Part shown: positions 1 to 8,051 of the stretch, in pieces | How positions within the stretch are numbered: position 1 is the stretch's first letter | Layout of the letters: every line of letters starts with the position of its first letter | Notes under the pieces: model-generated | What the model saw: only the letters and a program-made list of their open reading frames with translations | Databases searched by the model: none | Told to the model about the DNA's origin: nothing | Made by a program: the position numbers and the translations under genes | From: Chryseobacterium arthrosphaerae | Lineage (GTDB): Bacteria > Bacteroidota > Bacteroidia > Flavobacteriales > Weeksellaceae | Direction of reading: 5' to 3' | DNA: 64,000 nucleotides | Assembly (NCBI RefSeq): GCF_001684965.1 | Contig: NZ_MAYG01000001.1 | Location: 868,001-932,000 of the forward strand

Positions 1-290
1 GGGAGCTTTCAGAAAGTAAACCTATCCTTAAGAAACTGGTAGAACAACGTGAAGAAGTAGGTGAAGTATTATTCGGGAATATTTCAGATCCTTATTTCGG
101 GGGCGATGTGGCTAAGAGACACAGGGCAATTATGGCACTGATCGTTTCCGGAGCCTATTACCTGAATCTTTACACGGGATACAATGCCAATAAGTTCTGT
201 GGGATTGATCTGAAAACAGAAGACGGAAGAAAAGAGATTGAAGGCGCTATCGTAGAGCTGATCGATTTTGCATACAGTAAAAAGAAATAA
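1..290 (+). CDS. C-terminal end of a probable TetR/AcrR-family regulator (partial)
   Basis: The reading frame is open from base 3 to the stop at 288-290, so the gene begins before the window. About 95 residues are visible. They are mostly helical and end in a pattern (hydrophobic helix, short loop with GIDLKTEDGR, then a final amphipathic helix ending in lysines) that looks like the ligand-binding end of TetR-family repressors. The DNA-binding part is outside the window, so the family call is tentative. The gene is followed by an AT-rich inverted repeat (290-357) that may end its transcript. Confidence 0.45.
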   Translation, partial: ELSESKPILKKLVEQREEVGEVLFGNISDPYFGGDVAKRHRAIMALIVSGAYYLNLYTGYNANKFCGIDLKTEDGRKEIEGAIVELIDFAYSKKK

Positions 291-363
291 AAATTAAAAG
301 TTTTCCAATTTGAGCAGAAATAAGTTTTTTGTTGACAATTTGAAAACTTTTAATTTTCAAATT
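290..363. repeat. Overlapping AT-rich inverted repeats before dnaX
   Basis: Two perfect but mutually exclusive inverted repeats lie between the upstream gene and dnaX. A 16-base arm at 290-305 matches 342-357 with a 36-base loop, and a 10-base arm at 337-346 matches 354-363. Only one can form at a time. The larger one could end the upstream transcript. No GC-rich stem or clear U-tract is present, so its role is open. Confidence 0.5.
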
Positions 364-377
364 AAAACTATATTTCT

Positions 378-385
378 TATTTTTG
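378..385 (+). promoter_or_regulatory. -7 promoter element of dnaX
   Basis: TATTTTTG fits the Bacteroidetes TAnnTTTG consensus. It ends only four bases before the dnaX ATG at 390, so a transcript from it would have almost no 5' leader. No convincing -33 TTG was found at the usual distance. Confidence 0.5.
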
Positions 386-389
386 GCCA

Positions 390-1475
390 ATGGAAAATTT
401 TATAGTATCTGCAAGAAAATATCGTCCTCAGGAGTTTGATACGGTTGTAGGACAATCCCATATTACGGATACTTTAGAACATGCAATTGAAGAAAGCCAG
501 TTAGCTCAGGCATTGCTTTTTTGCGGACCTCGTGGTGTGGGTAAAACTACTTGTGCCAGAATCCTGGCAAGAAAGATCAATGAAAAAGATGGCTCGGTTT
601 CAGAAGACGGCTTTGCTTACAATATCTATGAGCTGGATGCTGCATCCAATAACTCTGTAGATGATATCAGGGAACTGATAGACCAGGTACGCTTTGCCCC
701 TCAGGTTGGTAAATACAAGGTATATATCATAGACGAGGTGCATATGTTGTCTTCTGCCGCTTTCAATGCATTCCTTAAGACGCTTGAGGAACCGCCGGCT
801 CATGCCATCTTCATTCTGGCAACTACGGAAAAGCATAAAATCATTCCTACGATTTTATCCCGATGCCAGATCTACGATTTTAAAAGAATCGTCATTGAAG
901 ACATCCAGGCACATCTTAGAAATATTGCCCAGAAAGAAAACATCCAGTACGAAGATGATGCATTGTACCTGATCGCCCAAAAGGCAGACGGGGCATTAAG
1001 AGATGCACTTTCCATTTTCGACAGGCTTTCTACATTTTCCCAAAAAAATATCACCCTGGCAAAAGCTGCCGAAGTTCTGAATATTCTGGATTATGACCAA
1101 TATCTGAATATTGTGGACCTTGCCAAGGAAAATAAAATTCCTGAAGTGCTTTCCGCTTTTAATGATATTGTCAAGAAAGGATTTGATCCTCATATATTCA
1201 TTGCCGGATTGGGAAATCATTTCAGAGATCTGATGATGGCACAGAATACCTCTACCATTGATCTGATCGAAGTGGGGGAGAAGACCAAATCCAGATTTGT
1301 GGAGCAGGGGCAGAAATGGGCCGCCCAACAGCTGATCGATGGTATTGAGATCTGCAACCATGCAGACATTAATTATAAAAACTCAAAAAATCCAAGACTT
1401 ACGGTTGAAATTGCACTGATGCAGCTGGCTTCCCTGACAGCTAATTCAGGTGATACTAAAAAAAAAAGTTCCTGA
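390..1475 (+). CDS. dnaX: DNA polymerase III subunit gamma (unshifted dnaX product)
   Basis: Without frameshifting, translation stops at the TGA at 1473-1475, two codons after the A-run, and gives a 361-residue protein. It contains the whole ATPase and oligomerisation part (domains I-III) but lacks the helicase- and polymerase-binding domains of tau. This is how the gamma form arises in E. coli and Thermus. Whether the short form is made here cannot be decided from sequence alone. It depends on whether the A10 run is real. Confidence 0.7.
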   Translation: MENFIVSARKYRPQEFDTVVGQSHITDTLEHAIEESQLAQALLFCGPRGVGKTTCARILARKINEKDGSVSEDGFAYNIYELDAASNNSVDDIRELIDQVRFAPQVGKYKVYIIDEVHMLSSAAFNAFLKTLEEPPAHAIFILATTEKHKIIPTILSRCQIYDFKRIVIEDIQAHLRNIAQKENIQYEDDALYLIAQKADGALRDALSIFDRLSTFSQKNITLAKAAEVLNILDYDQYLNIVDLAKENKIPEVLSAFNDIVKKGFDPHIFIAGLGNHFRDLMMAQNTSTIDLIEVGEKTKSRFVEQGQKWAAQQLIDGIEICNHADINYKNSKNPRLTVEIALMQLASLTANSGDTKKKSS

Positions 1476-2089
1476 TACTGGCTCCGTTTCTCAGTGAGAA
1501 GCAGGAACTGAAAATGCCTGAAAAAGTTCAGGAGAAAAAAGAAGAGGTTAAGGCAGAACAGCCTGCTGCCCTTGAAAAAGTGCAGGAAACTTCAGTAACG
1601 AAAACAAACAAGCCATTATCAAGACCGGGAATTTCTTCCGGTTTCAGCATCAATTCTTTTCTGACGAAGGAAGAAAAGGTAGAAACAGCAGAAAATATCG
1701 CTGTGAAAGCCGAAAACCTGCCCCAGAACCATTTTACAGATACAGATCTGCAGATGGAATGGAAAATCATGCTCAAACAGCTGCAGGTAAAAAACAATTT
1801 TGTTTTCAATGCGGTAAAAACCTTCAAACTGGTAAAAGCAGACGAACATAAGATCAGGGTTTTATTCCCTTCCGACTCTGCAAAAGTGGAATTTGACAAA
1901 ATAAGCGGAGAATTTTTCAATCATTTCAGAACAAAAGTTCAGAACCACAGTATTGAGATAGAATACGAGAGAGACGTTGAAAATCTGAAGATTGAGGTTG
2001 TTACCAAAAGAAAAATTTTCGAAAAGTTTATTGAAAAAAATCCACTTTTAAAAGATCTTGATGATTTAATGAAGTTTGATTTGACATAA
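390..2089 (+). CDS. dnaX: DNA polymerase III subunit tau (dnaX, full length through a -1 frameshift)
   Basis: The gene encodes the clamp-loader ATPase and polymerase-organising subunit. Reading 390-1466 in frame, then slipping back one base on the A10 run at 1458-1467, joins the N-terminal ATPase to the second open frame ending at 2089. The product would be 566 residues, normal for tau. Visible motifs are Walker A at residues 46-53, Walker B IIDEVH at 113-118 and the SRC sensor at 157-159. The four-cysteine zinc module found in E. coli DnaX is absent. The C-terminal part has a Lys/Glu-rich linker and then a helical domain suited to polymerase binding. The second frame has no stop between the slip and its first ATG at 1514, which argues for one gene. 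A missing A in the assembly would look the same. Confidence 0.85.
1458..1509 (+). promoter_or_regulatory. Candidate dnaX recoding site: A10 run plus hairpin
   Basis: Ten A residues (1458-1467) in the phase A AAA AAA are followed at once by a perfect 8-base stem, AGTTCCTG (1467-1474) with CAGGAACT (1502-1509). A second inner stem, ACTG (1477-1480) with CAGT (1492-1495), stacks in the loop. The unshifted stop codon lies inside the stem. Slippery run, hairpin and nearby stop match the layout of known dnaX frameshift sites, although the spacer to the outer stem is shorter than the usual 5-9 bases. Confidence 0.7.
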
Positions 2090-2103
2090 TTTTTATATCT
2101 TTG
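2075..2103 (+). promoter_or_regulatory. Promoter of the aromatic leader and DAHP synthase transcript
   Basis: TTTG at 2075-2078, 17 bases, then TATCTTTG at 2096-2103. Both parts fit the Bacteroidetes consensus. The promoter overlaps the last codons of dnaX and would start a transcript near 2110, leaving about 75 bases before the leader peptide and 380 before the enzyme gene. Confidence 0.6.
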
Positions 2104-2186
2104 TCAAAGATTTCTGAGAAAAATACATTTTCAACGGGATCAAATTATAATCAGAAACGCTAAAACAAAGACATTTCCAGAATAAA

Positions 2187-2318
2187 ATGGAAAAATTATC
2201 TAACACATATCAGTCTTTTTTTGCACCCGCTAATTACTTTTTTAGCGGTTATTTTAGCTTTTCTGCTTCTTATTATAGAAATTTCAGAACGTATTACCGA
2301 TTTTACTGGTACTGTTAA
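2187..2318 (+). CDS. Aromatic-rich leader peptide (43 residues)
   Basis: This short reading frame was found by reading the long gap before the DAHP synthase gene. It starts at an ATG with an A-rich upstream context (AATAAAATG) and ends at TAA 2316-2318. Of 43 residues, 8 are Phe (11, 12, 18, 19, 23, 25, 33, 39), 9 are Tyr (8, 17, 22, 29, 30, 36, 37, 40, 42) and one is Trp (41), so 18 are aromatic. It has no Met beyond the start and no sign of being a folded protein. The next gene makes the first committed compound of aromatic amino acid synthesis. The arrangement is that of a leader peptide whose ribosome stalls when charged tRNA-Phe or tRNA-Tyr is scarce. The regulatory role is inferred. Confidence 0.75.
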   Translation: MEKLSNTYQSFFAPANYFFSGYFSFSASYYRNFRTYYRFYWYC

Positions 2319-2442
2319 CTGAATTTCTTTCCAAAAAATACAGGAGAAGTAGAGCCCTTTTATTATCCTGATTTCCTTTAAACAATTTTTTAACGGCATT
2401 TTTTGAAAAGAATTATAAATTAAATTTTATAATCAAAGGGCT
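2227..2442 (+). promoter_or_regulatory. Candidate attenuator structures in the aroF leader
   Basis: Several pairings are possible in this leader RNA. CCGCTAA (2227-2233) pairs with TTAGCGG (2242-2248) inside the leader frame. CTGTTAA (2312-2318, covering the leader stop codon) can pair with TTAACGG (2390-2396), which is followed by a T-run and would resemble a weak terminator. CAGGA (2341-2345) pairs with TCCTG (2366-2370). AGCCCTTT (2353-2360) pairs with AAAGGGCT (2435-2442). The enclosing and long-range stems could switch with ribosome position. Which one ends transcription is not clear from sequence. Confidence 0.45.
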
Positions 2443-2488
2443 ATTGCTGTGAACTTAAAAAATATTAAAAACAATAAAATTTAGAATA

Positions 2489-3568
2489 ATGAATTTAAAA
2501 GATTTGAAAAATGAGTGGATCAACGGGCTTACACAACCCCTGATGATCGCAGGTCCATGCAGTGCGGAAAGTGAAGCTCAGATGCTTGAAACAGCCAGAA
2601 GAATTAAAGAATCCAATGCTCAGGTATCGGTTTTCCGTGCAGGAATCTGGAAACCCCGTACAAAACCTAACGGATTTGAGGGAGTAGGAGTGATCGGTTT
2701 GAACTGGCTAAAAAAAGTAAAAGAAGAATACGGCTTTAAAACAGCAACAGAAGTTGCCAATGCTCACCACGTTTTTGCTGCTCTGGAAGCTGATGTAGAT
2801 GTTCTTTGGATTGGAGCACGTTCTACAGTAAACCCTTTTACAGTACAGGAAATTGCTATGGCGTTAAGAGGTACTGATAAGCCGGTATTCGTTAAAAACC
2901 CTGTAAACCCGGATCTTGCATTATGGATTGGTGCGCTGGAAAGACTTTTGGGACAGGATATCAAAAACCTGGGAGTCATCCACAGAGGATTTTCAACATA
3001 CCAGAAAACAAAATACAGAAATAATCCAAACTGGCAGATTGCCCTTGATTTCAAAAGCCAGTTCCCGAATATCCCAATGCTGATCGACCCATCCCACATC
3101 TGCGGAAACAGAATAGGACTGGCAGATATCACCCAGGAAGCTCTTAACGTAGGTTACCAGGGAGCTATTATTGAAACACATTCCAATCCTGATGAAGCAT
3201 GGAGCGATGCTGCTCAGCAGATTACTCCGGAAGTACTTGCTGAAATGATTGGGAATTTAAAAGTAAGAAGTACAGATCTGGCAGGTTTTGAAGGGGAAAT
3301 GGGAAGGCACAGAACATTGATCTCTGATCTTGATTTCCAATTGATTGAACTTCTTTCTCAAAGGATGAAGATCTCTGAAAAGATCGGGAAACTTAAAAAA
3401 GAAAATGATATTGCCATCTTCCAGCCGGAACGTTGGAAAGTGATTACAGAATACGCTACCCAGAAAGCCAAAGAAACAGGAATGTCTCAGGAGTTTATTG
3501 AAAAGGTTTTCAAAGCGATTCACGAAGAATCTATTGAAGTTCAGAATAATATTATGATCAACAGATAA
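2489..3568 (+). CDS. Bifunctional 3-deoxy-7-phosphoheptulonate synthase / chorismate mutase
   Basis: The 359-residue protein has two parts. Residues about 1-255 form a DAHP synthase of the KDO8P-synthase-like type, with IAGPCSAES near residue 21, KPRTKP, KNPVNPD and the DPSH metal site. It condenses phosphoenolpyruvate with erythrose 4-phosphate. Residues about 265-359 are an AroQ-type chorismate mutase, with the helical LDFQLIELLSQRM and the RMK...IGKLKKEN pattern, which makes prephenate for Phe and Tyr. This fusion is common in Bacteroidetes. The gene follows a long leader with an aromatic-rich peptide, which suggests control by Phe and Tyr supply. Confidence 0.92.
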   Translation: MNLKDLKNEWINGLTQPLMIAGPCSAESEAQMLETARRIKESNAQVSVFRAGIWKPRTKPNGFEGVGVIGLNWLKKVKEEYGFKTATEVANAHHVFAALEADVDVLWIGARSTVNPFTVQEIAMALRGTDKPVFVKNPVNPDLALWIGALERLLGQDIKNLGVIHRGFSTYQKTKYRNNPNWQIALDFKSQFPNIPMLIDPSHICGNRIGLADITQEALNVGYQGAIIETHSNPDEAWSDAAQQITPEVLAEMIGNLKVRSTDLAGFEGEMGRHRTLISDLDFQLIELLSQRMKISEKIGKLKKENDIAIFQPERWKVITEYATQKAKETGMSQEFIEKVFKAIHEESIEVQNNIMINR

Positions 3569-3652
3569 TAGAGTATGGAAGACAGGAGTTAAAGGCTGGG
3601 AATTTATTTCCCTCCGAATCTTTAATGAAAGTTTTCTGAAGTCTGTACAATC

Positions 3653-3722
3653 AGGGCTTAGGTATCGGGATTTAGAAAAGCTGAAATATTTGTTTAGCCC
3701 TAATTTCCGAATCCTAAGCCCT
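3653..3722. repeat. Imperfect 23-base inverted repeat before rsgA
   Basis: The arm 3653-3675 is complementary to 3700-3722 at 19 of 23 positions, with a 24-base loop. The core AGGGCTTAGG / CCTAAGCCCT is perfect. A shorter direct copy, AGCCCTAATTT, occurs twice (from 3696 and from 3717). The right arm ends eight bases before the rsgA -7 element, so it could be a regulator site or the end of the upstream transcript. No U-tract follows. Confidence 0.5.
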
Positions 3723-3729
3723 AATTTCT

Positions 3730-3737
3730 TATATTTG
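3730..3737 (+). promoter_or_regulatory. -7 promoter element of rsgA
   Basis: TATATTTG matches TAnnTTTG exactly. It lies 14 bases before the rsgA start codon, so the transcript would have a leader of fewer than 10 bases. Confidence 0.55.
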
Positions 3738-3751
3738 CACAAGTATTATCT

Positions 3752-4678
3752 ATGAAAGGAAAAATCATTAAATCTACGGGCAGTTGGTATCAGGTTTTGG
3801 AATTGGAAACCAATAAGATTTTCGAGGCCAGAATCAGAGGGAAATTTAAATTAATTAAAACCAGACTTACCAATCCGCTTGCTGTAGGTGATTTTGTTGA
3901 GTTCCAGCTGGAGCAGGATGATATCGCATGGATTACTAAAATAGAACCACGCACCAATTACCTGATCCGTAAATCGGTCAACCTTTCAAAAGAGGCTCAT
4001 ATTATTGCTTCCAATATTGATCTTGCCTGTTTTATTTTTACCTTAAAACACCCGGAAACCTCACTGGGATTCCTTGACAGGTTTCTGGCATGCTGTGAAG
4101 CCTATAATATCACCCCATTAATCCTGTTTAACAAAATTGATGTTTTACACGAAGAAGAAATCGAAATTGTAAAAGACATCGAGTTCCTGTATCAGGAGAT
4201 TGGATATGACACTCTGGAAATATCTTCATACTCAAAGTTGAATCTTGATCAGCTTCAGGAATTGCTTAAAGATAAAACTTCCGTATTTTTCGGACACTCC
4301 GGTTGTGGGAAGTCCACATTGGTGAATGCACTGCAGCCAGGATTAAACCTTAAAACTTCAGAAATTTCCGATACCCATTTAAAAGGAAAGCATACTACAA
4401 CTTTTGCCCAGATGCACTTCTGGGACTTTGGAGGAAACGTGATCGATACTCCCGGAGTTCGTGAATTTGCCATGATTGACATTGAAAAAGAAGAAGTACA
4501 GCATTATTTTCCTGAAATTTTTAAAAAGAGGGAAGAATGTAAATTCCACAACTGCCTGCATGTCAACGAGCCAAAATGTGCGGTAATAGCCTCTCTGGAA
4601 ACAGGTGAAATTCAGCATTCCCGTTATGCCACTTATATCAAGCTTATGGACGAAGCTGAAGAAGCCTCTCAGAAATAA
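3752..4678 (+). CDS. rsgA: Ribosome small-subunit-dependent GTPase A (RsgA/YjeQ)
   Basis: RsgA is a circularly permuted GTPase that helps the final maturation of the 30S subunit. The 308-residue protein shows the expected order: an N-terminal OB fold (about 1-65), the G4 motif NKID at 127-130, then the P-loop GHSGCGKST at 181-189, the G3 motif DTPG at 232-235, and a C-terminal zinc site formed by Cys263, His266, Cys268 and Cys276. Length and motifs are normal for the family. It appears to be transcribed alone from a promoter just upstream. Confidence 0.95.
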   Translation: MKGKIIKSTGSWYQVLELETNKIFEARIRGKFKLIKTRLTNPLAVGDFVEFQLEQDDIAWITKIEPRTNYLIRKSVNLSKEAHIIASNIDLACFIFTLKHPETSLGFLDRFLACCEAYNITPLILFNKIDVLHEEEIEIVKDIEFLYQEIGYDTLEISSYSKLNLDQLQELLKDKTSVFFGHSGCGKSTLVNALQPGLNLKTSEISDTHLKGKHTTTFAQMHFWDFGGNVIDTPGVREFAMIDIEKEEVQHYFPEIFKKREECKFHNCLHVNEPKCAVIASLETGEIQHSRYATYIKLMDEAEEASQK

Positions 4679-5178
4679 CCGGACGACAATCTGTTCCCTA
4701 ACAGATTTCAAAAAAATAAGCATATATAAATTATGTGACTTTATGTCATTCGGACAAAATGTACATAATGATCTGTGAAATATGTGCCAGATAGATCAAC
4801 TGTGATATTCCTTTGATAAAAAAATTGATTTTATAAAACCTACCCGGAATGAACTTTCTTCATTATTATCCTGTATATATTTTCCGGATGATATCTGATC
4901 GGGTATCTGGGAATTAAGAGCTTGTAAAAATGATTTTTTTCTGTTTTTTAATGAAAAATTTTTTACATTTTTAAATAAGTCTTCTTTTCTGACTCACTTT
5001 TTCTGACAATAACTCTACTTTTTTCAAATTTATGTCTGCTCTTAAAATAAGGATGTCATAAAAAAGGAAGAACTCCGGTTTGTTTCATTGATTGAAATAG
5101 AAGCAATAACGTAACAATACGGTTTTATAAAGTTTTTTATGTTACGGGATTGTTAATAAAGCTATGGATTATTTGCAA

Positions 5179-5203
5179 ATAAAAAACCCAGCCGAAGCTG
5201 GGT
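5179..5203 (-). terminator. Orphan intrinsic terminator on the minus strand
   Basis: ACCCAGC (5186-5192) pairs with GCTGGGT (5197-5203) around a CGAA loop, which reads TTCG on the minus strand. An A-run at 5179-5186 becomes a U-tract on that strand. No minus-strand gene lies just upstream of it, so it may end an unannotated small RNA. Confidence 0.6.
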
Positions 5204-5204
5204 A

Positions 5205-5240
5205 AAAACTAATAACCATGAAAACTCAAATTAAACATGA
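5205..5240 (+). repeat. 36-base element, copy 1
   Basis: This stretch matches 9800-9835 at 27 of 36 positions, including a shared ACTCAAA and a conserved TA(A/G)TAACCA. Both copies are intergenic and both lie next to a hairpin terminator. They may belong to a small RNA family or a dispersed intergenic element. Confidence 0.4.
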
Positions 5241-5351
5241 GAATCGCAATAGAATAAACAATTACTGTGCCAAAGTTTGGTTCATGATTTCTTAATAAAA
5301 GTTATTTTTATGTTAAAAAAAAATTAAAATAAAAATAAAAGATATTTTTTG

Positions 5352-5359
5352 TAATTTTG
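5352..5359 (+). promoter_or_regulatory. -7 promoter element of ndk
   Basis: TAATTTTG matches TAnnTTTG and lies 24 bases before the ndk ATG. The upstream 30 bases are almost pure A and T with no clear TTG. Confidence 0.5.
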
Positions 5360-5383
5360 CGGCATTAAAAAAATTATACATTT

Positions 5384-5800
5384 ATGTCTAACATTACATT
5401 CACTATGATTAAGCCTGATGCAGTAGCAGACGGACATATCGGTGCAATATTGGGTAAGATTGCTGAAGGAGGTTTTAAAATCAAAGCTTTAAAATTAACT
5501 CAGCTTACAGTTGCTGATGCAAAAAAATTCTATGAAGTACATGCTGAAAGACCATTTTATGGAGAATTGGTAGAATTCATGAGTTCAGGTCCTATCGTTG
5601 CTGCTGTTTTAGAAAAAGACAACGCAGTAGAGGATTTCAGAACATTGATCGGTTCTACTAACCCTGCTGAAGCAGCTGAAGGTACAATCAGAAAAATGTT
5701 TGCAAGAAGCATCGGAGAAAATGCGGTTCACGGTTCAGATTCTGACGAGAATGCATTGATCGAAGCTCAGTTCCATTTTTCAGGGAGAGAGATTTTCTAA
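5384..5800 (+). CDS. ndk: Nucleoside diphosphate kinase
   Basis: Ndk transfers the gamma phosphate from ATP to nucleoside diphosphates through a phosphohistidine and so keeps the NTP and dNTP pools balanced. The 138-residue protein is of normal length. The N-terminal [10 protein letters not shown] and the active-site segment NAVHGSDS, with catalytic His116, are typical. It is transcribed alone between its own promoter and a strong terminator. Confidence 0.97.
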
Positions 5801-5824
5801 GAAAATCATCTTACAAAATAAAAG

Positions 5825-5855
5825 ATCCGGAGATAATTCTCCGGATTTTGTTTTT
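5825..5855 (+). terminator. Terminator of ndk
   Basis: ATCCGGAGA (5825-5833) pairs perfectly with TCTCCGGAT (5838-5846) around TAAT and is followed by a T-rich run. It lies 25 bases after the ndk stop. Confidence 0.85.
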
Positions 5856-5874
5856 ATATCAATAAGGCTGAATT

Positions 5875-7719
5875 TTAAAGATTATTTTCAACAGCACCTA
5901 CTTTTTCTCTGTAGAGTTCAAGCGGGCTGGTAAGAAGAACAGCAATGACCGTCATATTCTTGTCAAGTCTTTCTTTGGGAAAATCAATGTAAACACTGCC
6001 TGGTCTCGGGCTCCAGTAAAGCTTATTGTAAATTTGGTGAGAAAGTAAGGTACCTTCGCCCACAACTCTTATTCTTGCAATTTCATTTTTTATACCTTTC
6101 AGTGCAATGGGGCCTGTGGGGTTTCCTTCAACAAAAAGATAAAGGGTTTGTTTGTCCTTTGATAAGGCACTCATTCCAGGATAATGTCCTTCAGGCAATC
6201 CTTTTTCCGTTTCAAAAAAAGCCTCTGCATGCTTGCTGATCCAGTGAAAGGTTTCAGGATTCGTTTTGGAGGTTTTGCCGATATTCATGTGAAGTCCGTC
6301 AATAGTAAGGCCTGACTGAGTCAGCAGATTCTTGCCATGATGTAATGTATTCGCTAAATCATAAGCTGCCAGTTGGGTACTCTTGTCCACCAGTATTTCT
6401 GCAAGCGGACGTTCTTTCTCCTTAAAATCTTTCAGGAAAACAGGTTGTGTGTTAAAAATAAGCTCAGCAACGGTAACGTCTTTGTCAAATTTTACCTTTG
6501 ACAGATCCAATGTCAGGGTGCTGTCCCGATAATCCATATTGACCGGTGACTGATCATCTCCGACAATTTTAACGGCATCAGGCTTTGTTGCCAATCCATG
6601 AATTTTAGCGAAGTTTTTTACCTCCTCAAGATAAAGAAACAGCGATTTTTTTGAAGCTGATACGGTAGATTTTCCCTTATAGTTTTCAAAAGGAATTCCA
6701 CGGTCTGTTTCATAGATGGCTTTTTTATATCTGGAGGTCCATCGTCCAAGATCTTTCAGGATTTCCACCTGCTTTTCGGGAATGTTTCCATCGGCCTGCG
6801 GTCCAATATCAAGCAGGAGATTTCCTCCCATACTCATCACATCCGTTAATGTCCGGATGATCATATTGGAACTTTTATAATTATAGTCATGAGGCTGATA
6901 TCCCCATGAATCATTCATGGTATAGCAAAGTTCCCAGAACGGAGTATGGGGTGCTGTTACAGGAATCCCCTGTTCCGGAGTATCGTAATCACCATGCTTA
7001 TCAAGTCTTGAATTGACAATGATTTCAGGATTGTATTTTTTTAAAAGATCTAAAGTCTGTGTGGCTTTCCATTCTTCAGACGTATGTTCCCAATCTCCAT
7101 CGAACCAGAAGAGATCAGGATGATACCGGGATGAAAGCTCTGTAAGCTGGGTTTGATAATACCGGATAAAATTCTGCCATCGTTTCGGATCATTGTTGAT
7201 ATCATATCGCTTTTGCGCACGGGTGTAAATATCATAAGAGGAATGACTCCAGTCAGGCAGGGAAAAATAAAGCCCTGTCTTTAACCCCGAATTCTTAAGG
7301 CTGCTGATGAAAGGGCTTAAAACATCTTTTTGGGCTGAAGAATGGCGGGGGATGGTAATTGCATTTTCTGCATTCGAATTCCATAATGAAACTCCGTCAT
7401 GATGTTTGGTGGTAATTACTGCATATTGGGCTCCTGATTCTTTAATCAGCTTTACCCATTGGTCCGGCTGGTATTTTGAAGCGGAAAACCCGTTCAGCTG
7501 CTTCATGTAGTTTTCATGATTGATATAATTGTTGTAGAAAGACCATGATTCAGAAATTCCGTTAACAGAATAAATTCCCCAGTGAATAAAAATACCCAGT
7601 TTGGCATTTTTGAACCATTCCATTTTTTTGTTATTTTCAACAGATTGAGCTTTTATAGCACTACTGCCGACTGATAAAGCTAAGCCAAGGAAAACTGCTT
7701 GAAACAGCCTGTTTTTCAT
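5875..7719 (-). CDS. Secreted alpha-L-fucosidase (GH29)
   Basis: The 614-residue protein begins with a Sec signal peptide (residues 1-25, ending in KAQ). It has the GH29 barrel motifs HWGIYS near residue 46, KHHDG at 105-109 and WFDG at 205-208, where Asp207 is the predicted nucleophile. The last 270 residues look like beta-sandwich modules. The enzyme would release terminal alpha-L-fucose from glycans in the periplasm or outside the cell. It stands alone and convergent to ndk, and no SusC/D pair is adjacent. No T9SS sorting domain is visible. Confidence 0.9.
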   Translation of the reverse strand: MKNRLFQAVFLGLALSVGSSAIKAQSVENNKKMEWFKNAKLGIFIHWGIYSVNGISESWSFYNNYINHENYMKQLNGFSASKYQPDQWVKLIKESGAQYAVITTKHHDGVSLWNSNAENAITIPRHSSAQKDVLSPFISSLKNSGLKTGLYFSLPDWSHSSYDIYTRAQKRYDINNDPKRWQNFIRYYQTQLTELSSRYHPDLFWFDGDWEHTSEEWKATQTLDLLKKYNPEIIVNSRLDKHGDYDTPEQGIPVTAPHTPFWELCYTMNDSWGYQPHDYNYKSSNMIIRTLTDVMSMGGNLLLDIGPQADGNIPEKQVEILKDLGRWTSRYKKAIYETDRGIPFENYKGKSTVSASKKSLFLYLEEVKNFAKIHGLATKPDAVKIVGDDQSPVNMDYRDSTLTLDLSKVKFDKDVTVAELIFNTQPVFLKDFKEKERPLAEILVDKSTQLAAYDLANTLHHGKNLLTQSGLTIDGLHMNIGKTSKTNPETFHWISKHAEAFFETEKGLPEGHYPGMSALSKDKQTLYLFVEGNPTGPIALKGIKNEIARIRVVGEGTLLSHQIYNKLYWSPRPGSVYIDFPKERLDKNMTVIAVLLTSPLELYREKVGAVENNL

Positions 7720-7829
7720 TTTTTAATTTTAAGGCTAAATATAAATAAATTCTTCAAGAATAAATTATTGTATTTTTAGATCTGAAAAGAAATGGAACGT
7801 TTATTGCAAATTTCACTTAAAAAGAAGTT

Positions 7830-8051
7830 ATGAAAATTCCAGCATTATTAATGGCGAGTTTACTGGCGGTAGGAGTGTCTGCCCAGACTACGAAACCTGC
7901 AGCAAAATCCAAGAAGCCGGTAAAGAAGGTTAAAAAAGTTGTGGCTGCAGATACTGCAGAAAAGCCAAAGCCGGGTAAACCCAAACCTATTGTAAAAAAG
8001 GATACACTTGTACTTGGAGAACATGGCTGTCCGGCCTGTGGAATGGGATAA
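7830..8051 (+). CDS. Secreted Cys-containing RiPP precursor (chryseobasin-related, MNIO class)
   Basis: This 73-residue peptide has three parts. Residues 1-19 are a Sec-type signal (MKIPALLMASLLAVGVSAQ). Residues 20-58 are a basic Lys/Pro/Ala linker. The C-terminal tail ends in GEHGCPACGMG, with His65, Cys67 and Cys70. The stop is three bases from the start of a DUF692/MNIO gene, so the two are almost certainly co-translated. MNIO enzymes oxidise Cys residues in such peptides. A related ChrA/ChrH pair has been described from Chryseobacterium. That this peptide is modified, and its role (metal binding, for example), are inferred. Confidence 0.75.
   Translation: MKIPALLMASLLAVGVSAQTTKPAAKSKKPVKKVKKVVAADTAEKPKPGKPKPIVKKDTLVLGEHGCPACGMG

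Follow-up and report, generated by a model that had tools for sequence, protein, structure and literature searches.

In Chryseobacterium and two sister genera, a conserved Phe/Tyr-rich leader frame and RNA helices predicted to compete suggest a tRNA-charging sensor upstream of the DAHP synthase/chorismate mutase gene

Does the stretch between dnaX and the DAHP synthase/chorismate mutase gene of Chryseobacterium arthrosphaerae carry a regulatory leader, and by what route could such a leader act on the enzyme? We examined this question in a window of 64,000 nucleotides (contig NZ_MAYG01000001.1, positions 868,001 to 932,000), whose numbering is used throughout. The top NCBIfam models of the presumed target gene are those of DAHP synthase and chorismate mutase, all under curated cut-offs. 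A short frame with the sequence MEKLSNTYQSFFAPANYFFSGYFSFSASYYRNFRTYYRFYWYC occupies part of the gap that separates the dnaX stop (2089) from the enzyme start (2489); it holds 8 Phe, 9 Tyr and 1 Trp in 43 codons, exactly as the first-pass annotation had it. The promoter that was placed there at 2075–2103 was recovered one base further in, on the basis of its consensus only; among the 102 loci that make up the working set described below, 73 (window included) have the full form TTG-N16-21-TAnnTTTG and the other 29 a weaker match, a few of these standing at an odd distance. As in an attenuator, the predicted frame is thus short, rich in codons for the product of the pathway and directly upstream of the cognate biosynthesis gene, with a promoter of its own by consensus only. 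The neighboring dnaX (390–2089) is itself split in two frames, 390–1475 and 1514–2089, near ten consecutive A (about 1458–1467). This frame change is kept in all 84 relatives for which the two parts could be located (18 of 102 loci were not assessable), it is −1 in the seven relatives listed, and the A-run resembles a site of programmed frameshifting or slippage such as is known for dnaX elsewhere.

Table 1. Coordinates of the promoter, leader frame, RNA helices, shared segments and target gene in the window.
Feature	Position	Strand	Remarks
Bacteroidota-type promoter, TTG-N17-TATCTTTG	2076–2103	+	Consensus match only; overlaps the 3′ end of dnaX
Phe/Tyr-rich leader frame, 43 codons	2187–2318	+	Stop TAA at 2316–2318; kept in 102/102 loci
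P1, hairpin inside the leader frame	2227–2248	+	2227–2233 with 2242–2248; followed by U-rich TTATTTTAG
P2, hairpin	2278–2327	+	5′ arm S1, 2278–2287 (codons 31–34); 3′ arm 2319–2327, just past the stop
S2, near-invariant AATTTCTTTCCAAAAAA	2322–2338	+	Common to P2 (3′ arm) and P5 (5′ arm)
P3, hairpin	2341–2370	+	2341–2345 with 2366–2370; enclosed by P5
P6, 5′ strand	2353–2360	+	In the P3 loop; pairs with 2435–2442; compensatory changes in a minority of sequences
S3, near-invariant TTTTTTGAAAAGAATT	2399–2414	+	3′ arm of P5 (2325–2338 with 2399–2412)
P4, hairpin TTATAAA/TTTATAA	2412–2433	+	Directly 3′ of P5; no T-run after it
P6, 3′ strand	2435–2442	+	Pairs with 2353–2360
DAHP synthase/chorismate mutase gene, presumed target	2489–3568	+	NCBIfam matches

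The leader frame is not a product of chance: none of 2000 dinucleotide shuffles of 2104–2488 gave a forward-strand frame of 40 codons or more in which Phe, Tyr and Trp made up 40% or more, and its aromatic fraction is the highest among the 388 frames in the window that reach 35 codons. A scan of genome contigs provided a first set of related loci, the best 80 of 225, of which 78 are from Chryseobacterium and two from Weeksellaceae MAGs. In all 80, the most aromatic small upstream frame ends in a YYRFYW-type motif (with variants such as YQLYYW), followed by a few extra residues in six loci (L049, L051, L061, L066, L074 and L078); since the most aromatic frame was picked at each locus, the evidence lies in the shared sequence and not in the aromatic score. 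The working set was made up of the window, these 80 loci, 19 from g9 and two from g32, the latter two being sister genera; the g9 locus L182, cut by a contig end, was dropped. A frame with the conserved end is present in 102 of 102 loci, 81 of them Chryseobacterium-type (window included) and 21 from the sister genera. This C-terminal end reads RNFRxYYRFYWY, where x is free and the other positions are 84–100% identical. Thirteen leader positions are aromatic in 84–100% of the loci, W41 is invariant (102/102) and R38 is kept in 100 of 102. The N-terminal part is poorly conserved and its start codon may be ATG, GTG or TTG; the product of one of these codons occupies the aligned start position in 85 of 99 loci.

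Selection on the frame was assessed in 506 close pairs with 1–12 differences in the last 30 codons, pairs that are not independent of one another. Synonymous changes account for 62% of the single-base codon differences, versus 19% for random changes, and 72% of the residue-altering changes at aromatic codons lead to another aromatic residue, versus 13% expected, so that aromatic leader codons mostly change synonymously or to other aromatic codons. These comparisons indicate that the frame is real and under strong selection. Codon use is biased as well. Tyr is encoded by TAT in 81–100% of cases at six leader sites (98/98 at Y29 and 94/94 at Y36) and in 44–55% at two (Y37 and Y42), compared with only 1–29% at the enzyme's four conserved Tyr sites, as counted in 90 loci. 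TTT makes up 91–100% of the leader Phe codons, except at F33 (26%), and 12–91% at the nine Phe sites of the enzyme, a weaker contrast than that for Tyr. The Arg codon 38 (2298–2300), inside the aromatic cluster, is CGA in 98 of the 100 loci having Arg there, although the enzyme genes rarely use this codon (26 times among 1246 for Arg). The TAT preference may reflect slower decoding at low charging, and for the bias as a whole (Tyr, Phe and Arg38) RNA pairing and slow decoding could both be causes.

The enzyme itself is nearly ubiquitous in the family of the window, being found in 146 of 148 genomes (E ≤ 1e-60). Upstream DNA was taken for 71 places, plus 9 of the 30 loci listed from this 148-genome enzyme search. 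The first 60 places comprised 4 from g9 or g32 and 56 from other genera; inspection of their frame lists by eye showed the leader in g9 and g32, and the 56 loci from other genera of the family all lacked it. A dnaX-type end lies 11–90 nt before the enzyme gene in 26 of these 56 loci, which indicates that the leader region is an extra stretch in the Chryseobacterium/g9/g32 clade. The first-pass annotation had proposed to look for the aromatic frame in related genomes, and it is indeed kept in Chryseobacterium and the two sister genera, largely by synonymous or aromatic change. A covariance model (R1) comprising P5, P3 and P4 matched 42 of 148 family genomes, namely 20 of 20 from g1, 20 of 20 from g9 and 2 of 2 from g32, and none of 106 genomes from 30 other genera of the family. 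Of these matches, 41 stand 39–60 nt upstream of the enzyme gene on the same strand, and the last one is at a contig break. A search of 296 genomes across the order gave matches only in g1 (29) and g9 (7), with the reservation that R1 was built from g1, g9 and g32 members and was run with few candidates scored per genome and strict filters, by which distant relatives could be missed. From its absence in the 30 other genera sampled, we consider the element specific to one clade rather than general to Flavobacteriia. A generic platform or repeat was rejected, each matching genome having one R1 match and the genome of the window no second DNA copy (next match at E 0.008).

Several helices are conserved across these loci, as counted in 53 representatives of the 102, each below 94% similarity; for the P1 counts and the R1 model, 48 of them were used after five irregular sequences were dropped. 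The most conserved are P1, P2, P5 and P4, none of which appeared in the first-pass annotation. P1 is paired in 95.2% of cells versus 84.8% when shuffled, and 6 of its 7 pairs are changed on both sides. The lower stem of P2 (2278–2287/2319–2327) is paired in 94.3% of cells, with a C–G/U–A exchange at 2285–2321, and its inner stem (2295–2298/2308–2311) in 95.8%; the middle part (2288–2290/2314–2316) is paired in only 47.4%. P3 is paired in 86.2% of cells, and all 5 of its pairs are changed on both sides in some sequences. When pairs were ranked by G-statistic with APC, 2285–2321 came first among those at least 80% complementary, and three P1 pairs were included; many other high-ranking pairs fit no helix and look like phylogenetic noise. 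Covariation supports P1, P2 and P3. P5 and P4 are paired in 95.4% and 95.7% of cells, respectively; 6 of the 13 P5 pairs never vary and 2 are changed on both sides, and RNAalifold (alignment A1) did not predict P5, while in P4 it showed an innermost pair varying between G–U, U–A, G–C and A–U. A partner-swap test gave native versus swapped values of −9.67 versus −9.75 for P5, −3.11 versus −3.13 for P4 and −6.88 versus −6.22 for P2. Since the arms of P5 and P4 are near-invariant, covariation gives little proof of either helix, and the case for P5 is one of identity and position.

The first-pass annotation had drawn two other pairings in this region. One, in which 2312–2318 at the leader stop pairs with 2390–2396 ahead of a T-run, can be drawn in the window but is paired in 70.9% of cells versus 70.5% when shuffled among the 53 representatives, and of its seven pairs one is broken in 43 of 51 sequences and another in 28 of 53. 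The other, P6, fares better: it can be drawn and is kept by compensatory change, but only in part of Chryseobacterium; support is strong in this minority of sequences and weak in the rest. Its native mean over the 53 sequences is −8.07 kcal/mol versus −6.88 with swapped partners (standard deviation of swap means 0.27), and the best of 200 swaps, −7.65, falls short of the native strength. A duplex of −11 kcal/mol or stronger joins the P3 region to the bases after P4 in 14 of 53 sequences, ten of them at the place of P6, where the letters differ yet remain complementary (AGCCCTTT/AAAGGGCT and AGTCCTTT/AAAGGACT); in the 12 sequences from g9 and g32, the duplex of this region amounts to −2.1 to −8.7 kcal/mol. 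Shortly downstream of P4, the motif CTATTG (2441–2446) is seen again in many loci of Chryseobacterium and the sister genera. An internal promoter at P4/CTATTG was discarded, no TAnnTTTG being found there in alignments checked by eye.

P2 and P5 share S2. We computed how ribosome position would affect them, using partition-function models of the 53 sequences in three states: unmasked, with a mask over the leader that ends some 10 nt short of S2 (S1 covered), and with a mask reaching just past the stop. With nothing masked, P2 (7.3 pairs) coexists with the upper part of P5 (6.1 pairs). Masking to about 10 nt before S2 brings the mean number of lower P5 pairs from 3.3 up to 6.3; the expected total of P5 pairs gains more than 0.5 in 50 of 53 sequences, and no sequence shows a fall. 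The window itself is one of the three exceptions, with a total going only from 10.8 to 11.2. Masking just past the stop lowers P5 to 4.6 upper and 0.5 lower pairs. Since the upper pairs are present whatever the state, switching is partial: in the models, S2 is contested in a graded way between P2 and P5. Competing helices, one of them over control codons, are a further mark of attenuators that this locus is predicted to share, with a competition that is partial.

Another such mark, an intrinsic terminator made of a GC-rich hairpin and a U-tract, was not found between leader and enzyme gene. Directly before the T-run at 2399–2404, the best hairpin of the window reaches −0.9 kcal/mol, and the mean over 18 sequences is −0.7; the local CCTTTAAA..TTTAACGG stem is weak or absent. 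When an upstream partner was sought for the 13 nt before these six T, the best (−4.4 kcal/mol) lay at the 3′ arm of P1 and was judged, without shuffle control, to be due to chance. P4 was rejected as a terminator as well, being all A/U and devoid of a T-run. With this failure of the terminator test, we do not assign the locus to the classical attenuator class. The control by charged Phe- and Tyr-tRNA claimed at first is well supported in its sensing half, that is the frame, the promoter motif, the cognate gene and the ribosome-dependent helices; its switching half as drawn is unsupported, since the stem before the T-run is conserved no better than by chance and no terminator hairpin is present there. 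The best reading is that the sensing part works like a ribosome-mediated attenuator with a non-canonical output. P1, lying inside the frame with an interrupted U-tract, is a candidate RNA polymerase pause (or weak terminator).

We thus favor, with a probability of roughly two in three, a ribosome-mediated sensor of Phe and Tyr (plus one Trp) tRNA charging, which would control the DAHP synthase/chorismate mutase gene through P2 and P5. In such a sensor, P1 would probably pause RNA polymerase until the ribosome arrives, and the ribosome would next reach the aromatic codons. A stall at the late aromatic codons (about 29–40) would cover S1 and prevent P2, leaving S2 to pair fully with S3 in P5. 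A ribosome finishing the frame would cover S2 at the stop and then leave, upon which P2 would take the lower half of S2 and P5 would remain partial. We infer that formation of P5 and P4 raises enzyme expression in starvation, by an output other than a classical intrinsic terminator, for which Rho-dependent or pause-based attenuation is our first guess. Behind this scheme stand the observed conservation of frame and helices, the computed effect of ribosome position, the single R1 match per genome, the TAT preference and the Phe/Tyr leaders that other Flavobacteriales have before pheA. Several points count against it. The predicted switch is partial, the small P5 change in the window itself slightly lowers our confidence, and the P5 and P4 arms vary too little for covariation to prove much. 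A strongly starved ribosome should stall early (codons 8–25), which would leave S1 free and favor P2, not P5; and neither a switchable terminator nor a state-dependent change at the enzyme start was found.

The last point bears on translational or mRNA-stability control, in which ribosome position would set the P5/P4 fold and thereby ribosome access or mRNA decay, with no stop of transcription. The lack of a terminator before the gene fits this scheme, as does the end of P5/P4 at 39–60 nt before the start codon, and some single-sequence folds pair the enzyme start region with the U-rich leader bases after P1. However, that pairing shows no covariation (native −3.92 versus swapped −4.01 kcal/mol), and the accessibility of the enzyme start hardly differs between ribosome states, its mean unpaired probability from −15 to +3 being 0.56, 0.65 and 0.64 in the three. 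Sequestration of the start by leader bases was rejected for want of covariation and of clear state dependence, and we regard translational or stability control in general as unlikely.

A classical attenuator whose intrinsic terminator went unrecognized, for example P1 in the frame, masked by the ribosome, seems distinctly unlikely. P1 (−9.1 kcal/mol) with its U-rich tail is within the range of the his terminator of the same genome (−7.8), and is the only terminator-like site flagged by the scan between promoter and enzyme gene, besides being strongly conserved. Yet its tail is interrupted (TTATTTTAG; many loci of the sister genera have TATTTAGC or CATTTAGC), in contrast to the seven T that close the his and trp leaders; P1 also precedes most of the control codons and, as the terminator, would leave P2, P5 and P4 without a role.

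The conserved end RNFRxYYRFYWY(C/S) could instead stall the ribosome as a nascent chain, in a manner tuned by free aromatic amino acid, as TnaC arrest is tuned by Trp. Residues are conserved beyond aromaticity, as testified by W41 and by R38 with its near-constant CGA codon, but P2 is built from the same nucleotides, so that RNA pairing can explain this conservation, and a one-codon aromatic insertion occurs near W41 in a number of species; we find arrest quite improbable. It is very improbable that the frame encodes a small functional protein, with RNA helices serving mRNA stability only, for the amino-acid conservation that would favor this is set against an aromatic content matching the product of the next gene, a poorly conserved N-terminal part, varying start codons and the lack of a second DNA copy in the genome.

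If the tRNA-charging sensor is correct, the entry step of aromatic synthesis in the Chryseobacterium clade is under a leader-peptide sensor. Related genomes differ in their solution, with canonical Phe/Tyr pheA attenuators elsewhere in the order and a terminator-less DAHP synthase element here. Should its output not be an intrinsic terminator, the locus would offer a compact, testable model of ribosome-position read-out in Bacteroidota. More tentatively, we put forward as a possibility that this is a clade-specific aromatic sensor, in which the frame with its 18 aromatic codons sets the closure of a junction (P5 with P3 inside, beside P4) for terminator-less DAHP synthase control, and that it arose in the Chryseobacterium group, where no leader is seen before pheA, in contrast to the canonical pheA attenuators kept by other families of the Flavobacteriales.

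Among known RNA families, no leader, T-box or riboswitch of Rfam was matched up to E = 1 in window positions 1–8000 and six related loci, and a riboswitch or other known RNA was set aside on the same search. Bacteroid-trp (RF01692), which is linked to trp genes, gave no match in the genome of the window (E up to 1) or in window positions 1–8000. It resembles the present element as a cis-regulatory candidate of Bacteroidetes, as which it is listed in PMC2864571, and differs in that no covariance match to it exists here. In agreement with the first-pass annotation, which knew of no such leader for this gene in Flavobacteriia, none before a DAHP synthase gene in Bacteroidota is described among the literature matches listed, which were drawn from outside the subscription papers. 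The nearest likeness by description is AroR, a leader with a Phe-Tyr-Phe peptide before the aroF (DAHP synthase) operon of Corynebacterium glutamicum, where ribosome stalling under Phe limitation is reported to raise transcription (PMC11802643, citing Neshat et al. 2014; PMC4046766). Both are leader peptides before a DAHP synthase gene; by these descriptions, AroR has one Phe-Tyr-Phe motif, whereas the Chryseobacterium leader has 18 aromatic codons, no recognizable terminator and a host in another phylum.

For flavobacteria, PMC9723704 reports hints that leader peptides attenuate amino acid operons, and describes a structured 5′ element ahead of pheA in Flavobacteriaceae that is present in other genera. 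We found a prephenate dehydratase match in 31 of 60 sampled genomes of the order. Among the 30 loci listed for these, the 7 pheA loci of the family of the window have no aromatic-rich leader, one of them (L202) showing only a 13-codon frame that overlaps the gene. Of the 23 listed pheA loci in other families, the 14 with the clearest Phe/Tyr-rich frames were inspected (L205, L211, L212, L215–L218, L221–L223 and L226–L229), and in 13 of them a hairpin of −7.4 to −18 kcal/mol is accompanied by a T-run, L215 being the exception. These leaders resemble the present one in placing a Phe/Tyr-rich peptide before an aromatic pathway gene in the same order, and differ in the gene and in their terminator-like hairpins.

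The genome of the window also has a His leader, MKPIFLALHHYHHHIC (HHYHHH), before hisG (L191), followed by a hairpin with seven T (−7.8 kcal/mol), and a Trp leader, MFNMSNNIWWWLSNSSSGLEGLSCY (WWW), before trpE (L192), followed by a hairpin with seven T (−14.5 kcal/mol). Like the Phe/Tyr leader, both are control-codon peptides before the cognate gene; unlike it, they end in T7 terminators. In pheL and trpL of Escherichia coli, downstream pairing competes with a hairpin whose 5′ arm contains the control codons, and the terminator is the 3:4 hairpin with its U-tract. The Chryseobacterium leader shares with them the control codons on the 5′ arm of a competing hairpin and has, where their terminator would be compared, the all-A/U hairpin P4, which no T-run follows.
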